Part shown: piece after piece, positions 4,503 through 25,846 of the stretch
Numbering within the stretch: position 1 is the stretch's first letter
Layout: each line of letters begins with the position of its first letter
From: Angustibacter sp. Root456
Lineage (GTDB): Bacteria; Actinomycetota; Actinomycetes; Actinomycetales; Angustibacteraceae
Assembly: GCF_001426435.1 (NCBI RefSeq)
Contig: NZ_LMER01000016.1
Location: forward strand, 70,925-134,924
Direction: 5' to 3'
DNA: 64,000 bases
Program-made: the position numbers and the translations under genes
The notes under the pieces: model-generated
Database searches by the model: none
What the model was told of the DNA's origin: nothing
What the model saw: the letters and a program-made list of their open reading frames with translations, nothing else

Positions 4503-4555
4503 AGGTGATGACGCCGCCCCTCGTGTAAGACGGCCCTCGAGATGTCCGCTGAAAT

Positions 4556-4569
4556 CACGGTCAGCCGTG
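4556..4569. promoter_or_regulatory. Inverted repeat upstream of PASTA gene
   Basis: The arms CACGG and CCGTG are separated by TCAG, about 140 bp upstream of the PASTA gene start. The 207-bp spacer 4503-4709 holds no convincing gene; this is its clearest symmetric element. It could be an operator or chance in GC-rich DNA. Confidence 0.25.
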
Positions 4570-4709
4570 CTTCTCGCGTGGCACGATCCTCCGGGGCAAG
4601 GAGCTCAGTCGATCTCGGCACCTTGGCCGGCGCGGACTGCGCGTCGTTGCGCTCGAGGGCGGGCGAGGTCACGGCGGCCATGAGATCGACACGAGAGCAG
4701 AGGAAGCGG

Positions 4710-5744
4710 ATGCCGGAGGAGAACGCTGCGGTCGAGACCCCGGCGCGCGCTGACCACCCGACACCTACGCCGCGCCCGCATGGTCGTCGTTGGCTCGTCG
4801 TGGCAGCGCTTTCGATGGCTGGCGCCATGGTGCTCGGGTCTGGCGCGGCTGGCTGGTGGCTGGCGAATCGAACGCTCGTTGCCTCGCACCACGACGCGCC
4901 CGACCCCAAGTCACCACCTCCTTCGCAGGACGTCTCGCCCGCTCAGATGCCCGACGTTCGGGGCCTTCGGGCGGCAGTCGCTCAGCAGGTCCTCGTCGAC
5001 GCGGCGATCCCGGTGAACGCGATCTCCACCCACGACGCGCCATCAGCCGCCACCCCCGGTGTCGTGGTCGAGCAGACTCCAGCCTTCGGTGAAGACGATG
5101 TCTCGAAGGTCGATCTCGGAATCGCCGTGCCGGTCACGATGCCCGACCTGGCCGGCAAGAGCCAGGACGAGGCCGTCGAGACCCTCTCGGGATTCGGCGT
5201 CGGCGTGAGCGTCGCCTACGCCTACTCGAAGGACGTCACCGCCGGCCGCGTCCTGTCGACGACGCCGGCGATCGGGAAGCGCCTGGGTCCGACGGCGTCG
5301 ATCACGGTCGCGACGAGCGGGTCGACCCTTCCCCTGTCGCAGGTCAACACCGTCGCCGGGGGATGCGACTCCGCGCAGAACGTGGCGGTCAACGGCCACG
5401 ACTACGCCACGGCGTTGGGGTGCTCGACCGACACGACTGCTGCCGCCAGCACCACGTGGGTGCTGTCGAAGACGGTTGATCGCTTGGTCGCGACGGTCGG
5501 CATCGCGGACGACGAAGCGCCGGGTGCGTCCGCGCCCTACGCGGTCATCGTCGACGGCAAGGTCGTCGCCAAGGGGACAGCAGCATTCGGCGCATCGACG
5601 AAGATCGACGTGCGTTGCACCGGTGCGATCCAGCTCACGATCCGCGTCGGCCCGGCCTCCGCCGAGGACGTCACCGTGGAGTTCGGCGACGCCGTGGTCT
5701 ACGGGTCCGACCAGGGCATCGCGCGGCTGGCGAAGCTTCAGTGA
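4710..5744 (+). CDS. Membrane-anchored PASTA-domain protein with NPCBM-like C-terminus
   Basis: This is a 344-residue single-pass protein. A short cytoplasmic tail (about 1-26, Pro-rich) precedes one membrane helix (about 28-50) and an extracellular Pro-rich linker. Two PASTA repeats follow (about 80-140 and 142-206, beginning MPDVRG and MPDLAG). The C-terminal domain (about 210-340) resembles NPCBM/NEW2 carbohydrate-binding modules. PASTA domains usually bind muropeptides or lipid II. Here there is no kinase or transpeptidase domain, so the protein looks like a cell-wall sensor or scaffold. The ATG at 4710 is preferred because AGAGG lies just upstream; an earlier in-frame ATG at 4680 is weaker. 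Its stop overlaps the GTG of the VWA-SGNH gene, so the two are probably made together. Confidence 0.8.
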   Translation: MPEENAAVETPARADHPTPTPRPHGRRWLVVAALSMAGAMVLGSGAAGWWLANRTLVASHHDAPDPKSPPPSQDVSPAQMPDVRGLRAAVAQQVLVDAAIPVNAISTHDAPSAATPGVVVEQTPAFGEDDVSKVDLGIAVPVTMPDLAGKSQDEAVETLSGFGVGVSVAYAYSKDVTAGRVLSTTPAIGKRLGPTASITVATSGSTLPLSQVNTVAGGCDSAQNVAVNGHDYATALGCSTDTTAAASTTWVLSKTVDRLVATVGIADDEAPGASAPYAVIVDGKVVAKGTAAFGASTKIDVRCTGAIQLTIRVGPASAEDVTVEFGDAVVYGSDQGIARLAKLQ

Positions 5745-8197
5745 GGGTCAGGGGGATCCTGGCCGCCGCTGCTCTGGCTGCGCTCGCCGTCGCAGGAGGG
5801 GCCGCGGCGGGCCACCAGACGGCGAGCGCGACACCCACTGCGACGACGGCCTCAGACGTGGTGCCGCCCGTCGTGGTCGTCCTCGACCTGTCGGGCTCGA
5901 TGAATGATGACGACGGCACGGGACTCATCAAGCTGACAGGTGCGAAGAAGGCCGTCGACGAGGTGATCCGAGGCCTCCCGTCGTCGCAGCCCTTTGGGTT
6001 GTGGACGTATCCCGGGGGAGCCGACGACTGCGGGTCGGGCTCCTTCGCCATCACGCCGGGAACCATCCGCGACCTGGCCGGGACGATCGCCCGGGCCGAC
6101 GCCCTGACCGCCGACGGTGGCACCCCGACCGGTCCAGCCCTGCAGAGCGCAGCCGACGCCCTGACGTCGCAAGGCACCAGCAAGGCGACGCTGGTGCTGA
6201 TCTCCGACGGAGAGAGCAACTGCGGCGACAGTCCCTGCACGGTGGCGAAGGACCTCGTCACCAAGGGCTTCGACGTCACGATCCACACCGTCGGGTTCCG
6301 GGTGTCCGCGCAGGGACGCAGCGAGCTCAACTGCGTGGCGTCGGCCACCGGGGGCACCTACGTCGACGTCGACAACAGCAAGGAGCTGAACCAGACCCTC
6401 AAGCGCCTCACCCGCGCACGGCTGCGGATTCAAGCTGCGGGCCAAGCCGGTCAGCTCGACCTCGCACTCGGTCGGCTCACGGTCACGGTCTCCAACGACT
6501 CCGCGGTGACGGCGAACGACGTCCAGCTTCTCCTGACGCTCGACCGCAACGCCCCGGCCATCGGGAACACGCTGCTGCGGATCGGCAACCTCCTGCCCGG
6601 AACGTCGGTCGTCCGAACATGGAGCGTGGGTTCGCCTGTCCGCTCGCCCGGCGCAGCCATCGGCCAGAACGACGCGACAACGACCAAGTTCGCCCTGCGC
6701 GCCTGGGCCAGGAACGCCGACGAGGTGTCCGCCAACGGAGTGGTCGGTCGCCGTGGCGCCGACAGCGGTCAGGTCACGATGAAGGACGACCTCGGCGACG
6801 TCTTTCGCAGACCTCTCGACGCTGGGCACCCCATCGTGATCCTCGGGGACTCGTACTCGGCCGGGGAGGGGACCTTCGACTACGTCGCCGCACCGCGCGG
6901 CGTCTCGGCCGCATGCCACCGAAGCAACAAGTCGTATCTCATCGCCGAGCTCGACCCAGGAGACGTCGTGAACCTGGCCTGCTCGGGTGCGGTCAGCTGG
7001 GACTTGTACTACGAGGACGGGCGATCCACCCCGCCACAGCTCACCCAGCTCGACGACCTCGATCGCGCCCCCGGAGCGGTGGTGATGACGCTTGGGGGAA
7101 ACGACATCGGCTTCGCGGACATCGTCAGGGAGTGCGTGGTGAACAGCTGCGACGCGGACGCGGCGCAGATCGAGTCCTGGAACGACTCCGCTGACTCCCT
7201 TCGCACCTGGCTCGGGCCGGTCTACGAGGATGTGTGGAAGACCATCAACATCGAACGGCGACGCAAGCAGCGGAACGGGGCCTACGCGCCGGTCGTCGTC
7301 CTGGCGTACCCGCAGGTGACTCATGCGACGAAGTTCGGTGCGTGTGGGCGGATCGCGGGAGTCAAGCACACGATCGGTGCCGGCGAAGTGCGGGTGGCCA
7401 ACAACCTGGTCGCGCACCTCAACGCGGCGCTGCGAGCTGCAGTCGCAGACGCCCGGAGTGCTGGGTACGAGGTGTACTTCGTGCAAGAGACCGCGGACGC
7501 GATGCTTCCGAACCACACCCTCTGCGATGGCCGCAACGCCTACGTGAACGACGTCCTCCCGATCCCCGCGGCCAAGTGGCCGCCGATCGATGCCAGGCCC
7601 GAGTCCGTCCACCCCAACATCTCCGGCTACGCGGCCGAGACCGGCGCGATCGTGGGTTGGTCAGCCGTCGTGACCCCCGTCCCGCCCGACACCAGCTCCC
7701 ACGGCCCCACCGCCACGAAGGTGACGGACACGCCCTGGTCTCTCCTCCCGTTCGGCACCCCGTCGGTCGACGTCTCCGCACAACACACGGTCGACGGCTC
7801 GCTCCTCGACGGCGGACCAGTCATCATCCAGGGCACCGGCTACGAGCCGGGTGGGCCCGTCATCGTCTCGATCCACTCCACGCCTGCCGTCCTCGGAACG
7901 CTCATCGCTGACGAGGACGGAGACATTCGCGGCACGCTCCACCTACCTCCGAGGCTCGAGCTGGGCAGGCACGAGATCGTGGCATCCGGCAAGGGCGCCG
8001 ATGGGACGTTCCGACAGGATCGTGTCGCTGTGTCGGTGCTCGCCCGTGCGCCGGCGTGGGTGCAGCTGGCGCTCGTCGGAACGTGTCTGCTCCTCGTCGT
8101 GGCTGTCGTGTGCACCGCCCTCTGGCGGCGGGGCTCGCGCGGGGGTCGGTCCACTGCGGAAGACTCGCCGAGAGCTCAGCCGAGCCGTCAGCCGTGA
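5741..8197 (+). CDS. Secreted, membrane-anchored VWA + SGNH/GDSL hydrolase fusion
   Basis: This 818-residue protein starts at a GTG overlapping the PASTA gene stop. In order it has a signal peptide (about 1-24) and a von Willebrand A domain (about 42-225) with MIDAS motif DLSGS at 49-53, the TPTG loop and the LISDGES strand. A beta-rich linker follows (about 250-365), then an SGNH hydrolase domain with GDSYSAGEG (nucleophile Ser371), GGND (Asn454) and ESVHPN (His624). An Ig-like segment (about 680-765), one membrane helix (about 770-792) and a basic cytoplasmic tail complete it. The residue three before the catalytic His is Glu rather than the usual Asp. The hydrolase could be a lipase or a polysaccharide/peptidoglycan esterase; the VWA domain would bind a protein or matrix ligand with a metal. 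This fusion is unusual to me. Confidence 0.85.
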   Translation: MRVRGILAAAALAALAVAGGAAAGHQTASATPTATTASDVVPPVVVVLDLSGSMNDDDGTGLIKLTGAKKAVDEVIRGLPSSQPFGLWTYPGGADDCGSGSFAITPGTIRDLAGTIARADALTADGGTPTGPALQSAADALTSQGTSKATLVLISDGESNCGDSPCTVAKDLVTKGFDVTIHTVGFRVSAQGRSELNCVASATGGTYVDVDNSKELNQTLKRLTRARLRIQAAGQAGQLDLALGRLTVTVSNDSAVTANDVQLLLTLDRNAPAIGNTLLRIGNLLPGTSVVRTWSVGSPVRSPGAAIGQNDATTTKFALRAWARNADEVSANGVVGRRGADSGQVTMKDDLGDVFRRPLDAGHPIVILGDSYSAGEGTFDYVAAPRGVSAACHRSNKSYLIAELDPGDVVNLACSGAVSWDLYYEDGRSTPPQLTQLDDLDRAPGAVVMTLGGNDIGFADIVRECVVNSCDADAAQIESWNDSADSLRTWLGPVYEDVWKTINIERRRKQRNGAYAPVVVLAYPQVTHATKFGACGRIAGVKHTIGAGEVRVANNLVAHLNAALRAAVADARSAGYEVYFVQETADAMLPNHTLCDGRNAYVNDVLPIPAAKWPPIDARPESVHPNISGYAAETGAIVGWSAVVTPVPPDTSSHGPTATKVTDTPWSLLPFGTPSVDVSAQHTVDGSLLDGGPVIIQGTGYEPGGPVIVSIHSTPAVLGTLIADEDGDIRGTLHLPPRLELGRHEIVASGKGADGTFRQDRVAVSVLARAPAWVQLALVGTCLLLVVAVVCTALWRRGSRGGRSTAEDSPRAQPSRQP

Positions 8198-8211
8198 ACT
8201 CGGGAGGTGAC

Positions 8212-9153
8212 ATGAGCAGTGCGGGCTCGCCGGCCGGATGGGACAGCGGGGCGGACGTCGGGCTGATCGTTGCCTCGCCGGACTCGCAAGGAGTCCATCC
8301 CGACCACGAGATCACCGAGGTCGTGGGTGCGCTGGAGGCCGCTGGGCTACGGACGATCGTGGTGCCCTGGACGGCGCGGGTGGACTGGGGCAACGTCCGC
8401 GCCCTGGTTCTCAAGTCTCCCTGGGACTACTCCATGCGATCCGAGGAGTTCGCACGCTGGCTCGACCACGTGGAGGACCAGGCCGTCGTCCTCAACCCTC
8501 CGGCCATCGTCCGCTGGAACTACGACAAGCGGTACCTGCGCGCACTCCTTGCGGGTGGTGTCAACGCGACGCCGTTCGTTACGGTCGACTCCCTCGACAG
8601 GGCGAAGGAGGCACTCGGCGACCTCGGTCGTGCCCGGGTCGTGGTCAAGCCGACGGTCTCGGCGGGGTCACGTCACACCGGTCTGTTCGAGGCGAGTGAC
8701 CTCGCCGCGCTCCAGCTGGTAGCTCGCATCCTGGAGCTGGGGAAGACGCCCATGCTGATGCCCGCGCTCGATGCGGTCGAGCGGGAGGGAGAGCGGGGGC
8801 TCGTGTTCTTCGGAGGTGAGTTCTCCCATTGCGGGCGTAAGGCGCCCATCCTGGCCCGCGGGGGCGGATATCTCGGTGGCCAGTACACCGAGATCGTCGA
8901 TCGTGACGAGCCGGACGCTGATGAGATCGAGCTGGGTGCGCATTGTCTGCGGTTGATCGCGGATGTAGCGACCGGCCTGGGGGTAGCGCCCCGGCACGCG
9001 ACGCCGCTCTACGCGCGGATCGATGTCGCGCGCGGTCAGGACGGTCGCCCGTGCATCCTCGAGGCAGAGCTCTTCGAGCCCAGCTACTTCACCGGTCTCG
9101 ATCCTCGGGCCGCGCCGCGGTTCGCGGCCGCCCTCCAGAGGTATCTGGGCTAG
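8212..9153 (+). CDS. ATP-grasp superfamily protein (RimK/glutathione synthase-like)
   Basis: This is a 313-residue cytosolic protein with a strong RBS (GGGAGGTG, 8202-8209) before the ATG at 8212. The N-terminal part (about 15-100) is a pre-ATP-grasp alpha/beta domain. The central part carries VVVKPTVSAGSRHTGLF (nucleotide-binding Lys and Gly-rich loop). The C-terminal part has ARIDVARGQDGRPCILEAEL and ends near EPSYF, matching the metal-binding Glu positions of ATP-grasp ligases. Such enzymes join a carboxylate to an amine or thiol using ATP; the substrate cannot be told from sequence. It follows the VWA-SGNH gene by 14 nt, so it is probably co-transcribed. Its TAG stop interlocks with the opposite-strand GNAT stop (CTAG, 9150-9153). 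Confidence 0.82.
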   Translation: MSSAGSPAGWDSGADVGLIVASPDSQGVHPDHEITEVVGALEAAGLRTIVVPWTARVDWGNVRALVLKSPWDYSMRSEEFARWLDHVEDQAVVLNPPAIVRWNYDKRYLRALLAGGVNATPFVTVDSLDRAKEALGDLGRARVVVKPTVSAGSRHTGLFEASDLAALQLVARILELGKTPMLMPALDAVEREGERGLVFFGGEFSHCGRKAPILARGGGYLGGQYTEIVDRDEPDADEIELGAHCLRLIADVATGLGVAPRHATPLYARIDVARGQDGRPCILEAELFEPSYFTGLDPRAAPRFAAALQRYLG

Positions 9154-9602
9154 GTGCGGCTGAGGCGCATGAACTGCGTGCCCGCTGGCTGTGCAAAGCC
9201 GAGCTGCGCGTAGTACCCCACCAGCTCCGGGTCGCAGTAGAGCTCGAAGTCGTCCACCCGCCCGAGGGCGGGGTGGTTGAGGAGAGTGGAGACGACGCGT
9301 CGGCCGAGGCCCGCACGGCGCAAGGACGCGTCGACGATCACGTCGACGATGACGGCCTTGAACTCGAAGTCGGAGATGGCGCGGGCGAAGGCAACGAGCT
9401 CTCCCTCGACGAGCAGGCCTGCGTTGGCGGGCGAGGAGTCCAACATGGCGGCGACTCGGGCACGAGGTCGTTCGCGGGTCCACCACGCTTGGGCGAAAAG
9501 GTCCATCACGTCGTCGAGGTGTTCCACCGTGATCGTCGTGATCGTCGTGATCGCGTCGGCGGCAACGGGTTCCGTCCGGCGTGGACGTGCTGCGTGTGGC
9601 AC
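9150..9602 (-). CDS. GNAT family N-acetyltransferase
   Basis: This 150-residue protein has a GNAT fold: an N-terminal helix region, the core VDASLRRAGLGRRVVSTLL (the R/Q-x-x-G-x-G/A acetyl-CoA loop) and a C-terminal YCDPELVGYYAQLGF strand. The substrate is unknown. The GTG start at 9602 shares its G with the TAG stop of the upstream dehydrogenase. Residues about 12-19 are the repetitive ITTITTIT, encoded by a 9-bp tandem repeat. It is the last gene of the TIR operon, so it may modify or neutralise something linked to the TIR protein, but that is only inferred. An internal start after the repeat cannot be excluded. Confidence 0.83.
   Translation of the reverse strand: MPHAARPRRTEPVAADAITTITTITVEHLDDVMDLFAQAWWTRERPRARVAAMLDSSPANAGLLVEGELVAFARAISDFEFKAVIVDVIVDASLRRAGLGRRVVSTLLNHPALGRVDDFELYCDPELVGYYAQLGFAQPAGTQFMRLSRT
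9529..9553. repeat. 9-bp tandem repeat within GNAT coding start
   Basis: The unit gtgatcgtc occurs at 9529-9537 and 9538-9546, with a 7-bp partial copy at 9547-9553. On the coding strand it writes Ile-Thr-Thr repeats. Because the unit is a multiple of three, copy-number change would alter length without changing frame. Confidence 0.85.
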
Positions 9603-10519
9603 TAACCCTCTCCTTCCAGGTCGACGTGCAGTGGTGGGCGGACGCCGCGCGCCAGCTCCGCGAACGTCGTGGCGATGGCTTCGACGACGTCGTCCACAGT
9701 GCTCAGGGCGCCCACGTGTGGCGTGATGCGCACCTGGGGGTGCGCCCACAGCCAGGATGCTGCCTCCAGTGGTTCGACCTCGAACACGTCCAGGTCGGCC
9801 TGGACGACCGAGCCTCGGGTCAGCGCCGACTGCAGGGCGCTGAGGTCCACGGTGCTTCCCCGGCCAACGTTGATGAACTGGGTTTCGCGAAGCGATCCGA
9901 GCACGGTGTCGCTGATGATGCCCTTGGTCGCCGGCGAGGCGGGCAAGGCCGATATCAGGACCTGACACCCGTCGAGGGCCGCGTCGATGTCGCGCCACGG
10001 GTAGACGGTGTCGAAGTCGCTTGCGAGTCTTCCCGACCGGTTCACTCCGGTCACGTGAACTCCGTGTAGGCCAAGGGCTCTGGCGATGCCGGACGCAATC
10101 TGGCCGGTCCCGAGCACCACCGCACGGCTCGGCAGCGGGGCCGGCCCCAGAGGACGCCACTGCCGTCGTCGCTGGGCTTCGGCGTAGGCGGTGAGATGGT
10201 GCGCGTGGTCGAGAAGCAGAGCGAGGACGAACGTGCCCATCCTCTCGGGCATCCCTCCGATGGTGCGGGTGAGCAGCCCGATCTGGCTGGAGTGATCGAC
10301 GAAGTCGTCGACGCCCGCGCCCATGGCATGTACCCATTCGAACGCGACCGGACCGGGTACCTGCGGCCACATGAACCCGGTGTAGGCCTGCGCCCACCCG
10401 ACGTCATCGGAGTCAGGGTGTTCGCGGACCCGGACCGAGACCTGAGGGAGAAGGTCCGCCAGAGCGACGGCCACAGGCTGCCCCAGTCGGCCCGAGAGCA
10501 GCAATCGGCGAGGCGTCAT
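9602..10519 (-). CDS. D-2-hydroxyacid dehydrogenase-like NAD(P)-binding protein
   Basis: This is a 305-residue protein of the D-isomer 2-hydroxyacid dehydrogenase family. The Rossmann loop is VVLGTGQIASGIA. The catalytic triad of the family can be seen: Arg in NVGRGSTVD, Glu in DVFEVEPLE and His in ITPHVGA. It would oxidise or reduce a 2-hydroxyacid/2-ketoacid pair in the cytosol; the substrate is unclear, and glyoxylate/hydroxypyruvate-type reductases are the nearest group. The ATG at 10519 overlaps the TIR gene stop (ATGA), so translation is coupled. The start is firm because longer frames lose similarity. A metabolic dehydrogenase between a TIR-SBP fusion and an acetyltransferase is an odd grouping and suggests that a small acid is part of the system. 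Confidence 0.85.
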   Translation of the reverse strand: MTPRRLLLSGRLGQPVAVALADLLPQVSVRVREHPDSDDVGWAQAYTGFMWPQVPGPVAFEWVHAMGAGVDDFVDHSSQIGLLTRTIGGMPERMGTFVLALLLDHAHHLTAYAEAQRRRQWRPLGPAPLPSRAVVLGTGQIASGIARALGLHGVHVTGVNRSGRLASDFDTVYPWRDIDAALDGCQVLISALPASPATKGIISDTVLGSLRETQFINVGRGSTVDLSALQSALTRGSVVQADLDVFEVEPLEAASWLWAHPQVRITPHVGALSTVDDVVEAIATTFAELARGVRPPLHVDLEGEG

Positions 10520-11676
10520 AGCACCTGCAGCATGCCTGCGTAGTCCTGTTCGAGCTGCCGCTGCGCCTCTTCGAGCGTGGTTCCGGATCGTAGGGCCTGC
10601 AGGCGCTCGGTCAAGTGGTCCCGCAACGTCTCTCGGCCCTTCATCATCAGCAGGCCGATGTGCCCGACGTAGAGCGGGAAGGTGCTGAACTCGTGCCGAA
10701 CTGACGGTCCGATGGACTGCGCGACGATCCGACAGGTGATGTTGTCGGTGATCGCGGCGTCGGCGACGCCGGCCTGCACCATCCGGCCGACGTTGCCCAC
10801 GTCGGTGGTGTCGAGCTCGACGAGGCGCGCGGACCCTCGGGCGGCGCCGAACACGTCGACGGCCAGCTCGGCGCCGATCTCGCCCCGGCACACAGCGATC
10901 CGCACGTCCGACCTCATCAGGTCGCCGTGAGATTTGATGCGGGTGTCGTCTGCTCTGACGATCGCACCGATCGTCGACGCGAAGAGGCAGGCGGCGAAGT
11001 CGAACTCGTGTTCTCGTCGAGGCGTGCGGTACAGGCAGGCGACCGCGTCCAGCTCCCCTGACCGCAGGCCCTGAGCAGCTGCGTCGTTGGTGACATCGGT
11101 ATAGCGCACAGCGATCCCGGTCTCGACTGCGAACTGGTCGAGAAGCTCGACGAAGAGGCCGCTGGAGGGCTTACCGTCGACGCCGTGGCAGGAGAACGGC
11201 GGCCACGGGATGACGCCCACCTTGAGGGTGTCGCTGCTCGCGGCGGCTGTCTGGCTCTCCGGCGGCGCGGCGGGTACGGGTACCGGTGCTTCGTCGCCTG
11301 CCTGCCGGAAGTGCCGCACGACGTCGGCGACGATCGACTGCTCGCTCCCCATGATGCGGTGGAGGGCGCCCAGGTAGTAGTCGAGGTCTTCGGAGGTCGC
11401 GCCGTCGACGACGATGGGCAGGACGGACTTGCGGTGCCGCGCCGCCTGCTCCAGTTCGCGCAGGACGTGGTCTGACTGCGCCGAGGCAGGCGTCACCAGG
11501 ACGACGAAGTCGGAGCACTCTTGGATGGCGTGAACGAGCTGGCGGGGGTAGTTGATGCCGGACACCACGTCGCGTGGGGCGACCCAGCAGGGAAAGCCGG
11601 CGGCTTCGAGCTCGTTGACGATCTGTTGCGCGAGCGCAGCGTCGACCGAGCTGTGGCAGAGGAAAGCGCGCTGCAT
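10516..11676 (-). CDS. TIR domain fused to type 3 solute-binding domain
   Basis: This 386-residue protein has no signal peptide. Residues about 2-125 form a bacterial TIR_2-type domain: AFLCHSSVDAALA (box 1), CWVAPRDV (BB-loop region) and SDHVLRELEQA, where Glu74 sits at the position of the catalytic Glu of NAD-cleaving TIR enzymes. A Pro/Ala linker (about 129-150) leads to a full SBP_bac_3-like domain (about 150-386). It starts LKVGVIPWPPFSC and contains GELDAVACLYRTPRRE and GVADAAITDN, the hinge and ligand-pocket signatures of amino-acid-binding proteins. SBP domains normally act outside the cell; here the domain must sit in the cytosol beside TIR, so it probably senses a small molecule and controls TIR activity. 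The ATG at 11676 follows a G-rich stretch 8-12 nt upstream. It is first of three overlapping genes. Confidence 0.87.
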   Translation of the reverse strand: MQRAFLCHSSVDAALAQQIVNELEAAGFPCWVAPRDVVSGINYPRQLVHAIQECSDFVVLVTPASAQSDHVLRELEQAARHRKSVLPIVVDGATSEDLDYYLGALHRIMGSEQSIVADVVRHFRQAGDEAPVPVPAAPPESQTAAASSDTLKVGVIPWPPFSCHGVDGKPSSGLFVELLDQFAVETGIAVRYTDVTNDAAAQGLRSGELDAVACLYRTPRREHEFDFAACLFASTIGAIVRADDTRIKSHGDLMRSDVRIAVCRGEIGAELAVDVFGAARGSARLVELDTTDVGNVGRMVQAGVADAAITDNITCRIVAQSIGPSVRHEFSTFPLYVGHIGLLMMKGRETLRDHLTERLQALRSGTTLEEAQRQLEQDYAGMLQVL

Positions 11677-11701
11677 CGTTGATGGCCCCCTATTCGCAGA
11701 A

Positions 11702-11731
11702 ATTCTAGCCGCGCGGTCTGCGGTGATGTGA
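11702..11731 (-). promoter_or_regulatory. Candidate promoter of the TIR operon
   Basis: On the minus strand a TAGAAT (11707-11702) matches a -10 box and lies about 25 nt before the TIR start. A TCACAT (11731-11726) 18 nt upstream is a poor -35. The AT-rich patch stands out in the 235-bp spacer 11677-11911, which otherwise holds only the tadG remnant and the prfB leader. Confidence 0.4.
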
Positions 11732-11795
11732 CGCGTTCGCGAGTGTGGGCGCCGTTCGCCTAGATCGGGCAGCAGGAACGGGCCGGGTGGTCTTC

Positions 11796-11876
11796 GGGCG
11801 TGGCTCGCGATCACTACTGTCGTCGTCGCGTCGTGGAACGGCGGTGTCACCGGCGGGCCACCGCGACGGCGCGGAG
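11796..11876 (+). pseudogene. Remnant of tadG 3' end
   Basis: The stretch aligns with the end of the TadG-like gene at 4403-4486. Two blocks are identical: 20 bp (4429-4448 and 11820-11839) and 19 bp (4466-4484 and 11856-11874). Between them there are substitutions and a 1-nt deletion that breaks the frame. Upstream the similarity weakens but still reads RAWLAITTVVVASWN against RARLPVAAFVVASWN. It has no start and no intact frame, so it is a displaced gene fragment. It marks the right edge of the inserted block and suggests that tad and prfB were once adjacent. Confidence 0.75.
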
Positions 11877-11911
11877 CCTCCGGCCCCCGGACTGCCGTAA
11901 CCTGAGGTCTC

Positions 11912-25478: not shown

Positions 25479-25846
25479 GGGGGTGATCGGTTTCGACGTT
25501 GGTCGTACTCCCAGGAGAAGCGGGTCGAGGACGCACGGTTATCTCGTAAACGATCCGTGCAAACCAACAGGTGCCGATTCTCACAGCACCGACTTCGCCC
25601 TCGCCGCCTGAGCGAGCGTAGAAGTCCGTCAGCCCGTGGTCGCTCTCGCCACGGTTCCTGGCGTCAGCTAGAGAGCCACTGCTTCCGCCGCACGCCGCGG
25701 GCGGCGGAGGGACACTTACGCGGCTGAGCCCGGCAGCGACTTGCCTGCGTGATCGCTGGGGCCGAGAAATCCCGTAGCAGGCTGCACCCGGAGAAGTCCT
25801 GGTTCTGCGCCAGCGGACGCGGGTTCGATTCCCGCCACCTCCACCA
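25479..25846 (+). ncRNA. ssrA: tmRNA (transfer-messenger RNA)
   Basis: The 368-nt RNA rescues stalled ribosomes with SmpB. The 5' end GGGGGTG (25479-25485) pairs with CACCTCC (25836-25842), followed by ACCA (25843-25846). The conserved TGATCGGTTTCGACGTTGG near the 5' end and the T-arm GCGGGTTCGATTCCCGC near the 3' end are both present. The tag reading frame (25573-25611) writes ADSHSTDFALAA and stops at TGA, a typical actinobacterial tag with the ClpXP-recognised ALAA end. A terminator hairpin follows at 25869-25901. A TAGACT at 25437-25442 is the best -10 candidate in the 158-bp upstream spacer. Confidence 0.97.

Follow-up and report, generated by a model that had tools for sequence, protein, structure and literature searches.

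Here, we describe a TIR-SBP fusion protein from Angustibacter sp. Root456, in which a TIR domain and a type 3 solute-binding protein (SBP) domain form one chain. The fusion is genuine, and a full-length relative in a second genus adjoins the same three enzyme genes. In our best reading, to which we assign a probability of roughly one half, the protein is a cytosolic ligand-gated TIR enzyme with an amino-acid-like ligand that the enzymes encoded alongside it produce or remove, likely serving as an abortive defence or island-guarding module.

Domains and functional residues of the TIR-SBP protein

The window, i.e. the whole stretch of 64,000 nucleotides that was analysed, encodes the protein as follows:

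10516..11676, minus strand: TIR-SBP fusion protein, 386 aa, with TIR domain (residues 1-123), variable linker (124-148) and type 3 SBP domain (149-386), as delimited by Pfam, the relative and dN/dS
11308..11676, minus strand: TIR domain, residues 1-123, with H8, S68 and Glu74 at Cat1 active-site positions (Pfam, alignments)
10519..11232, minus strand: SBP_bac_3 domain, residues 149-386, with R221 and D311 at canonical amino-acid-binding positions (Pfam, alignments)

By profile, the protein is both a TIR_2 and an SBP_bac_3 protein, with Pfam matches at residues 5-96 (65.8 bits, E 6.4e-18; cut-off 28) and 151-373 (58.2 bits, E 9.4e-16; cut-off 26.4), respectively. A sequence-only reading of this DNA had claimed that the two domains share a single chain devoid of signal peptide and membrane helix, and the claim held in all parts: the open reading frame lies at the position and on the strand given above, both domains exceed the Pfam cut-offs, and the hydrophobicity peak in a 19-residue window is a mean of 1.24 (Kyte-Doolittle), with no transmembrane helix or signal peptide. 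As this peak reaches only 1.24 and the N-terminus is itself the first TIR strand, the protein is predicted to be cytosolic. Profile searches against the PDB matched the TIR part to a TIR-STING fusion (best match), Cat1 and SARM1, while the best matches of the C-terminal part were the amino-acid SBPs AncCDT, AncQR and TcyA-like proteins, ancestral binders of Arg/Gln thus being among its nearest relatives; the NCBIfam cystine SBP model matched the SBP part at 9.4e-07, under its cut-off. Structure prediction from a two-row alignment only gave a pLDDT of 41.8 for the whole protein and 39.7 for the SBP domain, and a Foldseek search with this low-pLDDT SBP model weakly ranked amino-acid SBPs on top (E of at least 2.5e-03, query TM-scores of at most 0.27). 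Since only two alignment rows were eligible and the pLDDT values are this low, we make no claim on the interdomain arrangement.

Glu74 of the TIR domain, previously noted as kept, turned out to be invariant in 11 of 11 aligned TIRs, as are F5, A16, A33, P34, D36, A50 and S68, and it aligns with E74 of Cat1. The NADase site of Cat1 is lined by S7, H8, N9, N10, D33, S68 and E74 (PMC12162218). At these positions, TIR-SBP has C7, H8, S9, S10, A33, S68 and E74; Ala33 thus stands where Cat1 has the site-lining D33, and D36 is invariant among the relatives of TIR-SBP. In the SBP domain, R221 and D311 are invariant across the aligned rows; in AncQR, AncCDT and TcyA-like chains, they align with the TPER-motif Arg and the TD-motif Asp, respectively. 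In structures of LAO, HisJ and GlnH, this Arg binds the carboxylate of the ligand and the Asp its amino group. Whether the pocket keeps the pair had been posed as a question, and the alignment answers it in the affirmative. Other pocket features depart from the family: a loop that usually reads GTT(S)xE is GEIGAE in TIR-SBP, the usual Thr/Ser being missing, and Tyr216 occupies a position at which related SBPs have a small residue. Given the loop and Tyr216, the protein may bind an unusual amino acid or a ligand other than a standard one, or binding may have been lost.

The cassette and its genomic setting

The fusion gene lies in a block of atypical composition together with the following genes:

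4505..11905, no strand assigned: foreign six-gene block between Tad pilus genes and prfB (composition; absent from the congener's site)
9602..10519, minus strand: D-2-hydroxyacid dehydrogenase, GhrA-like, 305 aa (PF02826, E 2.7e-34; Arg220, Glu249 and His268 kept)
9150..9602, minus strand: GNAT acetyltransferase (PF00583, E 2.3e-07)
8212..9153, plus strand: ATP-grasp ligase, DcsG-related (NCBIfam DcsG, 192.6 bits; cut-off 360)
5738..8197, plus strand: vWA and GDSL/SGNH lipase protein, possibly secreted or of the envelope (PF00092, PF13472; start approximate)
4542..5744, plus strand: PASTA and NPCBM protein (PF03793, PF08305; start approximate)

The start of the dehydrogenase gene overlaps the stop of the TIR-SBP gene (ATGA), and the GTG start of the GNAT gene overlaps the stop of the dehydrogenase gene (TAGTG); in this arrangement, TIR-SBP heads a translationally coupled operon in the order TIR-SBP, dehydrogenase, GNAT. 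The ATP-grasp gene is convergent with the GNAT gene, the two touching each other. Against the NCBIfam models Dhydh_Halo and GhrA, the dehydrogenase scored under both cut-offs.

A full-length, tblastn-confirmed TIR-SBP relative is encoded by Actinotalea solisilvae, with 74-75% identity across both domains and a diverged linker. It is followed by the same genes in the same order and orientation, namely dehydrogenase (58-60% identity), GNAT (53-57%) and convergent ATP-grasp (61%), and the catalytic Arg, Glu and His of the dehydrogenase are invariant between the two genomes. As the relative in a second genus adjoins the same three enzyme genes, TIR-SBP may well be a genuine metabolite-triggered switch for defence or self-destruction. 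Comparison of the two fusion genes yielded dN/dS values of ~0.19 for the TIR domain (0.157/0.845), ~0.18 for the SBP domain (0.175/0.950) and ~1.0 for the linker over 21 alignable codons: purifying selection keeps each domain, while the linker drifts. An assembly chimera or frameshift is ruled out by the relative with both domains and by the per-domain dN/dS, and a dead passenger domain by the low values in both domains next to ~1.0 in the linker. The genes for the PASTA/NPCBM protein (~30% identity; 30% to the relative) and the vWA/SGNH-lipase protein (~30% identity; 31% to the relative) adjoin the cassette in both genomes, the pair being inverted relative to it between the two, and their role in the cassette is uncertain. 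Relatives of the ATP-grasp ligase are common elsewhere at ~40% identity and lack the cassette within 1.5 kb, as do the nearest other relatives of the dehydrogenase (35-43% identity).

The GC3 of the six block genes is 82-88% compared to 97-98% in the adjoining prfB, ftsE and ftsX, and the GC content of the block is 68.5% compared to 72.2% in the rest of the window. A congener (G001) shares the gene order of the flanking Tad genes and prfB and has two unrelated genes in the gap instead of the block. Elsewhere in the window, a tmRNA gene was found at positions 25479-25846, with the tag ADSHSTDFALAA. In A. solisilvae, the cassette sits between two related tyrosine integrases ~20 kb apart (L003:217-1059 and L074:13769-14965), and the island also holds a TIR-STAND protein as well as TrkA_N and RyR proteins; we infer that this setting resembles an accessory or defence island. 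Within the same island (L074:5080-10057), the TIR-STAND gene is directly followed by a D-2-hydroxyacid dehydrogenase gene, the product of which is 32% identical to the dehydrogenase of the cassette, and by a gene for a DegT-type aminotransferase, called by eye from sequence. A second TIR thus occurs next to a hydroxyacid dehydrogenase within a single island. A second TIR gene was also found near a TrkA/RyR-like gene in the genome to which the window belongs (contig 15, L006, ~444,550-444,860), and RyR and TrkA_N proteins occur near TIR genes in A. solisilvae, too.

No third TIR-SBP was detected in overlapping samples drawn from the order (396 genomes), the Actinotalea family (222), the class (395) and the phylum (396), all of them actinobacterial, in which 4-8 first-look candidates per genome were scored at cut-offs of 1e-8 to 1e-14. 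The plasmids and phages searched held no other TIR-SBP fusion, and IMG/VR yielded no further homologue by protein, alignment or DNA pattern; the single scan across all species was sensitive to close relatives only. Two members were hence found, and distant fusions may exist elsewhere. Among the other TIRs that we encountered, partners include apparent transmembrane segments, pentapeptide repeats and STAND; the TIR domain is thus reused in varied combinations, the SBP being one choice. The initial statement that no described system is known to pair TIR with SBP agrees with the literature searched, in which we found none.

Proposed function and alternative explanations

Why should a TIR protein be carried together with three metabolite enzymes? 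The sequence-only reading had pictured a ligand-switched TIR enzyme, and the pairing, the cytosolic location, the catalytic Glu and the ligand residues all fit this picture; however, it took the gene alone, whereas the gene turned out to be part of a conserved four-gene set. That this set is conserved, brings together three metabolite enzymes and lies on foreign DNA suggests that the ligand is handled by the cassette rather than that the protein keeps a general watch on a free amino acid.

We infer the activity as an NADase, the class of ligand, the direction in which it switches the protein and a role in defence as follows. An amino-acid-like metabolite would enter the SBP cleft, where R221 would hold its carboxylate and D311 its amino group. 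Closure of the SBP lobes would alter the association of protomers and, by analogy with Cat1, the TIR domains would probably stack upon ligand binding; through Glu74, the stacked TIRs could then cut NAD or generate a signal based on ADP-ribose, and either event would lead to arrest or death of the cell. Dehydrogenase, GNAT and ATP-grasp ligase would make, modify or remove the metabolite and thereby set the threshold. The cassette would travel as accessory DNA and act, most likely, as an abortive defence or island-guarding module. Only tentatively, and at less than even odds, do we extend this to a mobile module for immunity or self-destruction, in which an amino-acid-like metabolite gates a TIR NADase via a cytosolic SBP and which brings along its own enzymes for making or destroying the trigger.

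The switch might also work the other way round. The ligand would then hold the TIR off and be maintained by the cassette enzymes or by host metabolism, and the TIR would fire once the ligand is depleted, or the enzymes are halted, by an invader or by stress. Such a guarded toxin would match the tight translational coupling of TIR-SBP, dehydrogenase and GNAT, as found in toxin-antidote arrangements, and the mobile-type setting; we nevertheless consider it unlikely, as Cat1 and other characterised TIR effectors with small ligands are activated by the ligand (PMC12162218). We are equally doubtful about a purely metabolic role, in which dehydrogenase, GNAT and DcsG-like ATP-grasp ligase produce a metabolite that derives from an amino acid, for instance a cycloserine-like one, and that TIR-SBP monitors for regulation or self-protection, with no phage defence involved. 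The relatedness of the ATP-grasp ligase to DcsG (under the model's cut-off), the second hydroxyacid dehydrogenase and DegT-type aminotransferase in the A. solisilvae island and the kinship of the SBP to amino-acid and cystine binders speak for such a pathway. However, the genes are too few for a full pathway, the neighbourhood of the cassette yielded no further gene of the cycloserine pathway and relatives of the ATP-grasp ligase are common in other contexts.

Even more improbable, in our view, is a fusion without ligand switching, in which the TIR acts in assembly rather than catalysis, or the SBP has degenerated into a structural module. Some TIRs do serve as scaffolds and several SBP loop residues of the protein are unusual, but the invariance of Glu74, Ser68, R221 and D311 argues against this explanation, as does the low SBP dN/dS between genera. 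We thus favour the ligand-gated TIR enzyme with a cassette-handled ligand.

Comparison with known systems

The closest parallel is Cat1, a CRISPR-associated TIR-CARF protein, which likewise joins a TIR of this family at its N-terminus (PDB 9mud), with equivalents of S68 and E74, to a C-terminal small-ligand sensor. Upon ligand binding, Cat1 assembles into filaments and cuts NAD, the NADase site being built by stacking (PMC12162218). The sensor of Cat1, in contrast, is a CARF domain for cyclic oligoadenylate, and Cat1 requires type III CRISPR and has neither an SBP nor metabolite enzymes; a Pfam search of TIR-SBP gave no CARF match. The TIR-SAVED and TIR-STING effectors of CBASS also unite TIR and ligand sensor in one chain, and SAVED_TIR was the best PADLOC match of the TIR part (E 2.3e-08), yet TIR-SBP lacks SAVED and STING, its sensor being SBP_bac_3, and Pfam revealed no CD-NTase or cyclase among the identified neighbouring genes. 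ThsB of Thoeris is related through the TIR part (E 4e-05 or weaker against ThsB models) but has no SBP, and no ThsA-type SIR2, SLOG or Macro partner was found by Pfam among the neighbours. Anti-phage system models in general gave no match to full-length TIR-SBP and weak matches to its TIR part only. As the genes identified include neither the sensors nor the partners that define Thoeris, CBASS or Cat1, the system is none of these three.

The SBP part resembles the type 3 SBPs of amino-acid ABC transporters (AncQR, TcyA, LAO/ArgBP) in its profile and in the positions of the carboxylate-binding Arg and the amino-binding Asp. Unlike these exported or membrane-anchored proteins, it carries no signal peptide, is predicted to be cytosolic and is fused behind a TIR, and its gene has no ABC transporter genes among its neighbours (Pfam). 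The neighbouring ATP-grasp ligase falls into the same family as the D-cycloserine synthetase DcsG over nearly its full length, but reaches only about half of the curated equivalog cut-off (192.6 compared to 360 bits).

Judged by its domains and neighbours, TIR-SBP resembles a ligand-gated TIR effector, but belongs to none of the named systems compared. In the literature searched, the TIR effectors with small ligands answer nucleotide signals, cyclic oligonucleotides among them; under our reading, if true, a TIR pathway would be switched by a non-nucleotide small molecule. Gating by an amino-acid-like metabolite would couple immunity by NAD depletion directly to metabolism, be it central or specialised, and a fold that binds its ligands outside the cell would have been recruited as an intracellular immune sensor. 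The SBP fold lends itself well to a search for the ligand, and the three adjoining enzymes offer a route to its identity. The novelty lies in the SBP as the sensor within the design of a TIR plus a small-ligand sensor.
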